This document shows positions 8,273 to 11,148 of a DNA stretch of 64,000 nucleotides, piece by piece. Made by a program: the position numbers and the translations under genes. The DNA is from Arcanobacterium buesumense (GTDB lineage Bacteria > Actinomycetota > Actinomycetes > Actinomycetales > Actinomycetaceae), in contig NZ_CP050804.1 of the NCBI RefSeq assembly GCF_012563545.1, positions 1,550,001-1,614,000 of the forward strand, written 5' to 3'. Below the pieces are notes generated by a model. That model was not told where the DNA came from. It made no database searches and was given only the letters and a program-made list of their open reading frames with translations. The first letter of the stretch is position 1. Every line of letters begins with the position of its first letter.

Positions 8273-8659
8273 TCACTTAAGGGTGACAGTTGCGCCAGCA
8301 CCTTCGAGCTGTTCCTTAGCCTTCTCAGCGGTTTCCTTGTTGACACCTTCGAGGATTGGCTTAGGTGCACCATCAACGAGGTCCTTAGCTTCCTTCAGAC
8401 CGAGGGAGGTAAGAGCGCGCACCTCCTTGATGACTGCAATCTTCTTGTCGCCAGCAGATTCGAGAATGACGTCAAATTCGTCCTTCTCTTCAGCAGCTTC
8501 AGCAGCGCCACCAGCAGCTGGGGCAGCAGCAGCAACTGCAACTGGAGCAGCAGCTTCTACGTCAAATTCTTCTTCGAACTTCTTAACGAAGTCGTTGAGC
8601 TCAACTAGGGTGAGCTCCTTGAAAGCTTCGATGAGCTCTTCAGCGGTGAGCTTAGCCAT
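8273..8659 (-). CDS. rplL: 50S ribosomal protein L7/L12
   Basis: 128-aa ribosomal stalk protein that recruits translation GTPases. The order is standard: N-terminal dimerisation helices ([20 protein letters not shown]), an Ala-rich flexible hinge at about 35-55, and the conserved C-terminal domain with [20 protein letters not shown] and [10 protein letters not shown] good ribosome site (GGAAGGTAGG) precedes the ATG. It is the second gene of rplJ-rplL, 64 bases after rplJ. The strong Ala, Glu and Lys bias is normal for the family. Confidence 0.99.
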
Positions 8660-8723: not shown

Positions 8724-9248
8724 TCAGGCAGCAGCTTCTTCTTGCTTCGCACGTAGTGCGTCGACAGTGCGTACCAACTTGGTTGCTGGTGCGTTGAAAA
8801 CAAATGCAGCCTTCTGCATGGAAGCCTTGAGAGCTCCGGCAGCCTTGGCCAAAAGGACCTCGCGAGATTCGAGATCGGCGAGCTTCGAAACATCTTCAGC
8901 AGCCAGAAGCGTGCCTTCAAGAACACCAGCCTTAACGATAAGTGCCGGGTTTTCTTTGGCGAAGTTCTTCACTGCCTTAGCTGCGGAAGCGATGTCACCG
9001 GTGACGAATGCCAGTGCAGTCGGGCCGGAAAGCGCGTCATCGAGACCTTCGACGCCAGCTTCCTTAGCCGCGATGCGAGCGAGGGTGTTCTTCGCAACAA
9101 CGTACGTAGCTTCTTGACCCATTGCGCGACGAAGAGTCTTCATCTGTGCAACAGTCAGTCCACGGTACTCAGTTACGAGAACGGCCGAAGAACCCGAGAA
9201 TAGCTCCTTGAGCTCTGCGATCGCTGCAGACTTGTCGGTCCGTGCCAT
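8724..9248 (-). CDS. rplJ: 50S ribosomal protein L10
   Basis: 174 aa, base of the L10(L12)n stalk. It has the typical start MARTDKSAAIAELKELF, the central VTEYRGLTVAQMKTLRRAMG RNA-binding part and a C-terminal helix (KLVRTVDALRAKQEEAAA) that binds L12 dimers. The ATG has a strong AAGGAGG site. The complex of L10 with L12 is known in other bacteria to repress its own operon by binding the leader RNA, and the leader here has the expected elements. udk lies upstream on the same strand, not rplA as in many genomes. Confidence 0.99.
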   Translation of the reverse strand: MARTDKSAAIAELKELFSGSSAVLVTEYRGLTVAQMKTLRRAMGQEATYVVAKNTLARIAAKEAGVEGLDDALSGPTALAFVTGDIASAAKAVKNFAKENPALIVKAGVLEGTLLAAEDVSKLADLESREVLLAKAAGALKASMQKAAFVFNAPATKLVRTVDALRAKQEEAAA

Positions 9249-9432
9249 GGGACCTCCTTCCGATTGAATGCCGAGATCGGAAGTTCAACATCGCGAAACC
9301 AAAGCGGGAATAAAAAATCCTCATGCATAGGCATGAGGACGGGTGCAGATTACCTGCTGTCTTTCGTACCTACGCTGGCTTCGCCGTGCGAACTTCGTCC
9401 CGAAAATTTCGGGCGACCTGCGGTCTTGGGCA
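9249..9432 (-). ncRNA. L10 leader of the rplJ-rplL operon
   Basis: Transcribed leader of about 184 bases. On the minus strand it contains AAGACCGCAGGT, a small hairpin (9399-9413, CCCGAAA/TTTCGGG), then CAGCAGGTAATCTGC, the paired elements expected of the L10-binding leader family (Rfam L10_leader), and then an attenuator hairpin. The known role of this family is autoregulation by the L10(L12) complex. A covariance search with the Rfam model would confirm it; I recognise it by pattern only. Confidence 0.75.
9313..9338 (-). terminator. Attenuator inside the L10 leader
   Basis: Minus-strand stem CCTCATGC/GCATGAGG (8 bp, 9331-9338 with 9319-9326), 4-base loop, one A, then six T residues (rc of 9313-9318): a textbook intrinsic terminator. 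It lies 70 bases upstream of the rplJ start and downstream of the predicted L10-binding part, so it can only act as a transcription attenuator. Confidence 0.8.
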
Positions 9433-9438
9433 ATTAGT

Positions 9439-9467
9439 AGACTACGTCTATTTGAGCATCTTGGCAA
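9439..9467 (-). promoter_or_regulatory. Candidate promoter of rplJ-rplL
   Basis: On the minus strand TTGCCA (9462-9467, 5 of 6 consensus), 17-bp spacer, TAGTCT (9439-9444, fits the actinobacterial TANNNT). It lies just downstream of the udk stop and places the start of transcription near 9432. Confidence 0.5.
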
Positions 9468-9521: not shown

Positions 9522-10148
9522 CTACTGCGCCAATTTCTTCAGCTCCCCATCTATACGATGGAACAGCATATCGAGGGCAACAAGGTTATGCCCACCTTCT
9601 GGCACAATCAGATCTGCACGGCGTTTTGACGGCTCTACATATATTTCATGCATTGGCTTAACCGTGCCTAAATACTGCGACTCCACCGATTCTAATGAGC
9701 GCCCACGCTCCACCACATCACGTTTGATACGTCGCAAAATACGCACATCGGCGTCGGTATCAACAAAAATCTTTACGTCACACAAATCGCACAAACGTGG
9801 CTCGGCAAAAATCAAAATACCTTCAAGAATAAGTACCGGTGCAGGCTCAATGTGTTGGGTTTCAACTGCCCTATTGTGGTTCGCATAATCATAAACAGGT
9901 GATTCGATTGCCTGACCGTTCAGCAATGAGTGAAGATGGTCAACTAAAAGATCGTTATCGAAAGATTGGGGATGATCATAATTGAGCTGGGAACGTTCCT
10001 CATAGCTCAAATCATTATGAGCTTTATAGTAGGAATCATGAAAAATAACTGACGCATGCGGGGCAAACCGCGACTCAATCGCCCGCGTTAAGGTCGTCTT
10101 TCCACTTCCAGTACCACCTGCAATACCGATGACTAACGATGTACTCAC
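9522..10148 (-). CDS. udk: Uridine kinase
   Basis: 208-aa P-loop kinase that phosphorylates uridine (and usually cytidine) in pyrimidine salvage. Walker A is GGTGSGKT at 11-18; the next family signatures are FHDSYYK (substrate-binding Asp/Tyr), NYDHPQSFDNDL and VLILEGILIF, then the lid region RRIKRDVVERGRS. The start is GTG with an AAAGGGG ribosome site. It stands alone between the rplKA terminator and the rplJL promoter, so it is a visitor in the ribosomal cluster rather than part of it. Phosphoribulokinase belongs to the same superfamily, but the length and motifs favour uridine kinase. Confidence 0.9.
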   Translation of the reverse strand: MSTSLVIGIAGGTGSGKTTLTRAIESRFAPHASVIFHDSYYKAHNDLSYEERSQLNYDHPQSFDNDLLVDHLHSLLNGQAIESPVYDYANHNRAVETQHIEPAPVLILEGILIFAEPRLCDLCDVKIFVDTDADVRILRRIKRDVVERGRSLESVESQYLGTVKPMHEIYVEPSKRRADLIVPEGGHNLVALDMLFHRIDGELKKLAQ

Positions 10149-10341: not shown

Positions 10342-11043
10342 TCAGGCTTCCTTTGAGCTCTTGGTTGCATCGATGCGAATACCAGGGCCCATCGTAGTTG
10401 ATACGGTTGCTTTGAGTAAGTAACGACCCTTAGATGAGGCTGGCTTCAAACGCATGATCTCTTCGTGAGCTGCAGTGAAGTTTTCAATGAGCTGTTCCTT
10501 GGTGAAGGATGTATTACCAATGATGAAAGCAAGGTTACCGTGCTTATCAACACGGAACTCAATACGTCCACCCTTGATGTCGTTAACAGCCTTAGCGGTA
10601 TCCATTGTCACGGTACCGGTCTTTGGGTTAGGCATCAAACCACGTGGACCAAGCACGCGACCTAAACGGCCAACCTTACCCATGAGATCCGGGGTTGCAA
10701 CAGCTGCATCGAAGTCGGTCCAGCCACCTGCGACCTTTTCGATGAGCTCGTCGCCGCCGACTTCATCAGCACCAGCTTCAAGAGCTGCTTGTGCTTTGTC
10801 GCCAACTGCGAAAACGATAACGCGTGCCGTCTTACCAGTTCCGTGTGGCAGATTAACAGTGCCACGAACCATCTGATCAGCTTTACGCGGATCAACACCG
10901 AGGCGGTACATAACCTCAACGGTAGATGGGAACTTAGTAACGGACGTCTTCTGTGCTAGCTCAATCGCTTCAGCTGGCGTATAAATTTCGCCAGCCTGGA
11001 TGAGCTCAGCAGCCTTACGATAATTCTTTGAGCGCTTTGCCAT
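10342..11043 (-). CDS. rplA: 50S ribosomal protein L1
   Basis: 233 aa, the usual length of L1, which forms the mobile stalk near the E site and represses its own operon in many bacteria. Conserved parts: [15 protein letters not shown] start, [20 protein letters not shown], the signature [20 protein letters not shown] and the C-terminal [18 protein letters not shown]. An upstream in-frame codon would add 22 residues, but the ATG at 11043 has a clear AAGGAG site and matches the family start. It follows rplK with a gap of 105 bases. Confidence 0.99.
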
Positions 11044-11148
11044 TCTGCTTTTCTCCTTGTCAGCAGTTGTGGGGAACGAACCCGCTCGGGCTCTACCACG
11101 ATGCCACATGTGGCATCATCAGTTGCTCGGGATGAGCGGTTAAGATTC

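Follow-up and report, generated by a model that had tools for sequence, protein, structure and literature searches.

The best-described counterpart of the leader analyzed here is that of Bacillus subtilis rplJL, in which termination promoted by L10(L12)4 was shown by in vitro transcription, binding, and mutations, as set out in the passages of Yakhnin et al. (2015; PMC4538822) on this mechanism. In Escherichia coli, a leader bound by L10 also mediates autogenous control of rplJL, with translation as the controlled step, according to the passages on this operon in the same paper and in a 2024 review (PMC10931766). Citing Fu et al. 2013, the review states in its passage on this leader that an L10 leader may be in more than half of the sequenced Actinobacteria and that the mechanisms should be explored; the presence of the leader in Actinobacteria is therefore not new. 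No study of actinobacterial rplJ attenuation was found in the literature searched, and Fu et al. 2013 may discuss it. The term "L10" is absent from the main text of a 20-leader survey (PMC7247131), and "rplJ" and "L10" are both absent from the main text of a terminator survey (PMC2965389), whose relevant portion predicts few intrinsic terminators for the group containing our organism. The available portions of PMC3207917, PMC3766115, PMC4895711, and PMC8388888 add nothing on an actinobacterial L10 leader.

Here, we analyzed the leader of rplJ in a window of 64,000 nt (positions 1,550,001 to 1,614,000) of the 1.94-Mb genome of Arcanobacterium buesumense, together with leaders and loci of other genomes, labeled L followed by a number. 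An anti-antiterminator (AAT), an antiterminator (AT), and an intrinsic terminator (T) are present beside rplJ, and they are conserved, mutually exclusive, and covarying. Based on comparative sequence analysis, we put at roughly 80% the probability that this leader is an autogenous L10(L12)4 transcription attenuator of rplJL, similar to that of B. subtilis, in a divergent actinobacterial form whose AT would grip the apex of the terminator.

Gene order and promoter

The whole leader region sits on the minus strand of the window, where the order of open reading frames is nusG, rplK, rplA, udk, leader, rplJ, rplL, and rpoB. Apart from rplJ, these names are those that we take the genes to have from their sequences. 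The rplJ gene (8724 to 9248, ATG at 9248) encodes ribosomal protein L10, shares homology with the L10 gene at 80 named actinobacterial loci, and would be the first regulated gene; rplL (8273 to 8659), presumably encoding L7/L12, would be coregulated. A Shine-Dalgarno (SD) sequence for rplJ, AAGGAGG (9253 to 9259), is kept in the genus alignment. The closest named loci in a protein search were those of Arcanobacterium bovis and A. pluranimalium, with an L10 identity of 84%. The udk stop codon lies at 9522, upstream of the leader, and this uridine kinase gene (9522 to 10148) is placed between rplA (10342 to 11109) and rplJ. It is also directly upstream of rplJ in the genus-like loci L004, L005, L131, L132, L135, L137 to L141, L162, and L163, with no udk match in the remaining loci compared, whose flanks are limited.

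An earlier, sequence-only reading of this DNA had pointed to a promoter-like pair upstream of rplJ. The pair is present as a -35 box, TTGCCA (9467 to 9462), a 17-nt spacer, and a -10 box, TAGTCT (9444 to 9439), together spanning 9439 to 9467, and the boxes are kept in close relatives; a generic promoter scan of the window did not list it. In 69 of 81 loci, compared with a mean of 4.3 and a maximum of 13 in shuffles, a TANNNT box ends 3 to 10 nt before the leader, which makes it most likely that the leader opens its own transcript. Transcription is predicted to start at about 9433 to 9431, giving a leader RNA from about 9432.

A conserved stem at the putative L10 site

The first-strand motif AAGACCGCNGGU is matched at 10 or more of its 12 letters in all 81 leaders (the 80 named loci plus the window), and in relatives it is followed by a second strand, RCCWGCGCAGGUGA, and then by a U-run hairpin. 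RNAalifold, applied to an alignment of 65 nonredundant leaders (A1), gave a three-way junction of 17 pairs, 11 of them with changes on both sides, composed of an outer stem (ACC/GGU), a kink-turn-like internal loop, an inner stem (CGC.GGU/RCC.GCG), and the hairpins P2 and P3. Nine AAT stem pairs are formed in 97.6% of the cells of A1, compared with 24 to 39% in slid registers, and columns 14 and 136 hold C-G, T-A, or T-G in 141 of 142 leaders.

In the window, the 5' strand of the AAT, which is the putative L10 site, reads GCC-CAAGAC-CGCAGGU (9416 to 9431; outer stem, kink-turn-like internal loop, and inner stem). Hairpin P2, CGCCCGAAAUUUUCGGGACG (9396 to 9415), has changes on both sides at all four of its consensus pairs. 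It is followed, within 9380 to 9396, by a GAAG junction (9396 to 9393), whose AAG columns are almost invariant, and by hairpin P3, UUCGC-ACG-GCGAA (9392 to 9380). The 3' strand, CCA-GCGUAGGUA (9367 to 9378), closes the stem; its segment GCGUAGGUA (9375 to 9367) is the switch strand, which would alternatively serve as the 5' strand of the antiterminator, as the AAT pairing and the swap tests below suggest. The sequence-only reading had named two L10-leader-like elements. One of them, ACCGCAGGT (9424 to 9416), is indeed part of the 5' strand of the conserved stem; the other, CAGCAGGTAATCTGC (9359 to 9345), belongs to a linker hairpin, CAGCAGGUAAUCUGC (9345 to 9359), that varies even inside the genus and is not a conserved L10-leader element. 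The true 3' strand, GCGUAGGUA, had been overlooked.

The window and most of the class keep ACC/GGU and AGAC, while GA on the 3' strand of the kink turn is replaced by CA or UA, and UAA by GAAG. Between the leader and the GTPase-center stem of the organism's own 23S rRNA, the resemblance is short only, and we give it no weight.

Terminator and antiterminator

Downstream of the linker, the window holds a terminator hairpin, GUCCUCAUGC-CUAU-GCAUGAGGAU (9317 to 9340), recovered by the hairpin scan and on the fold path, and a run of six T residues (9312 to 9317), from which the 3' end of the attenuated RNA is predicted at about 9314 to 9311. The six T residues and the 70 nt to the rplJ start codon agree with the sequence-only reading, and the stem has 10 pairs (9340 to 9317) instead of the 8 counted there. 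At least four T residues in the 10-nt tail were found in 79 of 81 leaders (exceptions, L026 and L059), and U-runs of high-GC relatives are often weaker than that of the window. The hairpin scan returned T-tailed hairpins in 78 of 81 leaders and none in L026, L059, and L068; in L018 and L031 it picked an extra upstream hairpin, and the terminators of these five leaders were set by hand. The Demequina leaders L018 and L031 carry two tandem T-tailed hairpins, and only in the second is the apex complementary to the switch strand.

The mutually exclusive antiterminator, unseen in the sequence-only reading, is a 9-bp complementarity between the switch strand GCGUAGGUA (9375 to 9367) and the terminator apex UGCCUAUGC (9333 to 9325). 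In most leaders the switch strand is GCGCAGGUG (GCGUAGGUA in the window), and in many the apex is CGCCUGCGC (UGCCUAUGC in the window). On A1, which was built without regard to AT, the AT pairs form in 87.1% of cells, and a register slid by two still gives 80.2%; the AT covariation score was matched by 4 of 500 shuffles. Swap tests, which depend on no register, gave stronger evidence. Among the 65 leaders, with kinship not removed, each leader's own switch strand on its own terminator scored 20.27, compared with 18.91 ± 0.20 for swapped strands (0/2,000) and 13.33 for letter-shuffled ones. A second set of 71 leaders, taken from genomes searched later and used neither in the alignment nor in the model, gave 20.70, compared with 19.77 ± 0.16 (0/2,000) and 13.83, respectively, again with kinship not removed. 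Among the 78 later leaders, the window's own aside, L114 exactly duplicates L034 from the first set, and no other exceeds the near-identity cutoff.

Changes in individual columns were read on a FastTree tree of the L10 proteins of 142 leaders (65 plus 77). Column 138 is paired in both states and covaries with both partners: in all three variants among the 142 (L073, L076, and L134) C12/G138/(C or T), given in the order AAT partner, column 138, and AT partner, has become T12/A138/T. The G-to-A change has at least two origins on the tree, and L199, found separately, shows it by eye. Column 139, unpaired in the AAT, has changed about nine times, always from C to T, with the pairing to its AT partner retained. 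Where it is T, 13 leaders have G as the partner and four, namely, the window, L066, L073, and L076, have A, the partners being taken from the best-scoring complementary run, so that unpaired cells appear as missing, only one of them at column 139. A clean case is Demequina flava (L066), with GCGUAGG and CCUACGC, compared with GCGCAGG and CCUGCGC in other Demequina (L018, L021, and L031). A second one is the window, whose apex has A at the site where the other members of its genus with GCGUAGG carry G. Covariation among relatives had been proposed as a check by the sequence-only reading; in the comparative alignments and on the L10 tree, both AAT and AT covary.

Folding and the level of control

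None of 200 dinucleotide shuffles folds as well as the 183-nt leader (z, -4.0). Along the fold path of the window, AT has the lowest energy with the RNA end at 9324 or 9321 and gives way to AAT plus T once the end reaches 9318; the full leader has computed energies of -37.8 kcal/mol for AT and -41.0 kcal/mol for AAT plus T. AT appears in the partial-transcript fold of 134 of 142 leaders (46 to 53 in letter-shuffled motif controls) and is missing from that of L008, L030, L058, L061, L118, L119, L123, and L127. The full-length minimum-energy folds contain AAT in only 26 and T in 59 of the 142. Such scarcity fits a default of readthrough that would be tipped by the protein, and fits equally a weak AAT.

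The leader could instead act on translation, as in E. coli, with L10(L12)4 binding refolding the RNA so that the rplJ SD is hidden and the U-run hairpin is incidental. In the window, CUUCCGAU (9283 to 9276) can pair with AUCGGAAG (9264 to 9257), which overlaps the SD, and enforcing the AAT lowers the computed SD accessibility from 0.50 to 0.29; it is also lowered in 10 of 12 relatives, the exceptions being L139 and L140. However, this SD hairpin (9283 to 9257) is found in part of the genus and is missing or weaker in L131, L162, and L163. By comparison, 79 of 81 leaders retain the U-run terminator, and covariation links the terminator apex to the L10-site strand, a conservation of the apex that translational repression leaves unexplained. 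We therefore consider purely translational autorepression unlikely; on the computed folds, control of translation may nevertheless be an extra layer in the genus.

A long-range helix in the readthrough RNA, which would keep the AAT from closing and leave the SD accessible, was also considered and rejected, as it is not conserved. It joins the P3 side (about 9396 to 9373) to the stretch after the terminator (about 9306 to 9279) and would dismantle the L10 site. The duplex has a z of -3.3 in the window, but only -0.7 to -1.5 in the closest relatives, is absent in L004, L005, and L131, and has a median z of 0.05 in 78 leaders of other genera.

Distribution of the leader and its relation to Rfam families

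At Rfam gathering thresholds, the 64-kb window returned four tRNAs only. A search with the Rfam L10_leader model (RF00557), which the sequence-only reading had proposed, gave a divided answer: at a lax threshold, an end-to-end match was obtained at 9448 to 9303 on the minus strand, whose 19.5 bits fall below the gathering cutoff of 44 bits, and this match is the best for RF00557 in the whole 1.94-Mb genome, the next scoring 13.8 bits. The gathering threshold was exceeded in 0 of 20 relative loci and 0 of 16 further scans, two sets that overlap in part (four loci; L042, L055, L074, and others of the first 80). Among 12 loci searched at E values up to 1, the same position scored 30.3 bits in L004 and 29.5 bits in L008. 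Ms_AS-1 (RF02463) was considered as an experimentally seen terminated L10 leader and discarded: it scores 18 bits at the leader, compared with the 37 needed, and its over-threshold matches (17 of 22 genomes) map elsewhere than at the leader in all 10 genomes that are comparable.

A covariance model, R1, was built with 148 positions and the AAT-junction pairs only. It found a match in all 39 relatives and, in an even sampling of the class, in 275 of 296 genomes (good assemblies, 259 of 267; genera, 103 of 115), with one match per genome among the matches listed and three in one genome; rplJ lies just downstream in 78 of 78 fetched loci. Named loci of Streptomyces, Corynebacterium, and Bifidobacterium carry the leader. 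When 20 of the 21 genomes missed by R1 were examined, only four had an L10 match in the assembly. Of these four, L199 has the full set, L198 and L200 have the AAT motifs and lack the T-run, and L201 is truncated by the end of its contig. Upstream of rplJ in L200 (G556, a draft assembly with the L10 gene cut at the contig end), an AT-type hairpin, CCCCCGCGCAUCUGUGCCGGGGG, abuts AAGGAG and has no U-run; it is possibly a terminator turned into a translation-level element.

Across the phylum, R1 matches 57 of 396 genomes. Leaders of 26 genomes of other classes (L172 to L197) were inspected by eye, and several are canonical, with AGACAGC.GG, UUAAU, and GCCGAGGU, followed by U-run hairpins. Mixed forms were also seen: L184 joins GAAG to GCCGAGGU, L186 joins UUAAU to GCGCAGGU, and L198 and L200, among the class genomes missed by R1, are mixed as well. 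The forms in L184 and L186 support descent from the RF00557 type. In 12 leaders of other classes, an apex-type AT was not detected (own, 11.5; swapped, 11.8), the motif finder having misassigned several of them.

The divergence of the putative L10 site bears on the identity of the ligand. The canonical UAA of the known site is GAAG here, and GA on the 3' strand of the kink turn is CA or UA, as might be expected if a real attenuator responded to a ligand other than L10(L12)4, such as another ribosomal protein, or if a constitutive terminator set a fixed ratio. Yet the leader always adjoins rplJ (78/78), RF00557 aligns over the same stem, and leaders mixing both forms exist (L184 and L186). Moreover, the fact that AAT is conserved against AT speaks for regulation. 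Another ligand or a fixed ratio thus appears improbable, and the reading that we prefer remains attenuation by L10(L12)4.

Discussion

In the mechanism proposed, RNA polymerase would start at the promoter just upstream and produce a leader with three overlapping structures. The AAT, a kink-turn-like stem with a three-way junction, is the expected L10(L12)4 site; in AT, the 3' strand of the AAT, GCGUAGGUA, would pair with the terminator apex, UGCCUAUGC; and T is the predicted intrinsic terminator. When free L10(L12)4 is low, the switch strand would quit the AAT and capture the emerging terminator apex, so that T is not closed and rplJL is transcribed. When L10(L12)4 is in excess, the AAT would be held closed, the switch strand would be unavailable, and T would form, ending transcription near 9312. 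Both the role of L10(L12)4 as ligand and the occurrence of regulated termination in vivo are inferred. The sequence-only reading had argued for transcription attenuation from the layout, and our comparisons support this, since the stem, the terminator, and the mutually exclusive antiterminator are conserved across the class and covary.

That the hairpin instead merely ends, without regulation, the transcription unit of the upstream gene udk (or rplA), as its position on the same strand 182 nt after the end of udk might suggest, is very improbable, since udk and the hairpin are separated by a conserved promoter, so that the terminator would act on rplJL itself, while the hairpin is also kept in loci without a udk match and its apex is complementary to a leader strand.

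Beyond this locus, nearly all of the class Actinomycetes probably control rplJL by an L10 attenuator of their own, in which the L10-site strand would grip the apical loop of the terminator and one short strand, of the GCGCAGGUG type, would be selected by both of its partners. Such leaders would form a distinct RNA family, missed by Rfam 15 thresholds, with a mechanism apparently untested in the phylum according to the literature searched. The model obtained here is resolved to single nucleotides, is backed by covariation, and has matches in 275 of the 296 genomes of the class. From it follow predictions of the bases to be altered and of the 3' end of the short RNA, and the underlying alignment is a resource for a family left unrecognized at the Rfam threshold. 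If true, a conserved ribosomal-protein attenuator would exist in a group predicted to be poor in intrinsic terminators, according to the relevant portion of PMC2965389.

Comparison with known systems

As in the B. subtilis rplJL attenuator, described in the corresponding passages of PMC4538822, the window has an L10-site stem as the predicted anti-antiterminator, an overlapping antiterminator, an intrinsic terminator, and a promoter directly upstream. The terminator lies between leader and rplJ, and the antiterminator can coexist with neither the L10-site stem nor the terminator. The leader letters have diverged, with GCG[C/U]AGGU in place of GCCGAGGU and GAAG in place of UAA. The overlaps also differ: in B. 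subtilis, the same passages give 8 nt between antiterminator and anti-antiterminator and 5 nt between antiterminator and terminator, whereas in the window the whole 9-nt partner lies inside the terminator, centered on its apical loop. A leader peptide of the B. subtilis type, with its SD in the 3' arm of the terminator, was also looked for, and no conserved open reading frame follows the terminator in 13 leaders of the genus and its neighbors, judged by eye. The ATG after the terminator in the window has no SD and is absent, by eye, in several relatives.

Compared with the RF00557 family, the leader has the same place directly upstream of rplJ and the same outer stem, and a terminator is part of the family model, but its score remains at 19.5 bits, compared with the 44-bit cutoff. 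With the E. coli rplJL leader, the proposed switch would share autogenous control through a leader that binds L10. However, control in E. coli is exerted at translation, according to the passages on this operon in PMC4538822 and PMC10931766, whereas the conserved terminator and antiterminator of the window point to transcription.
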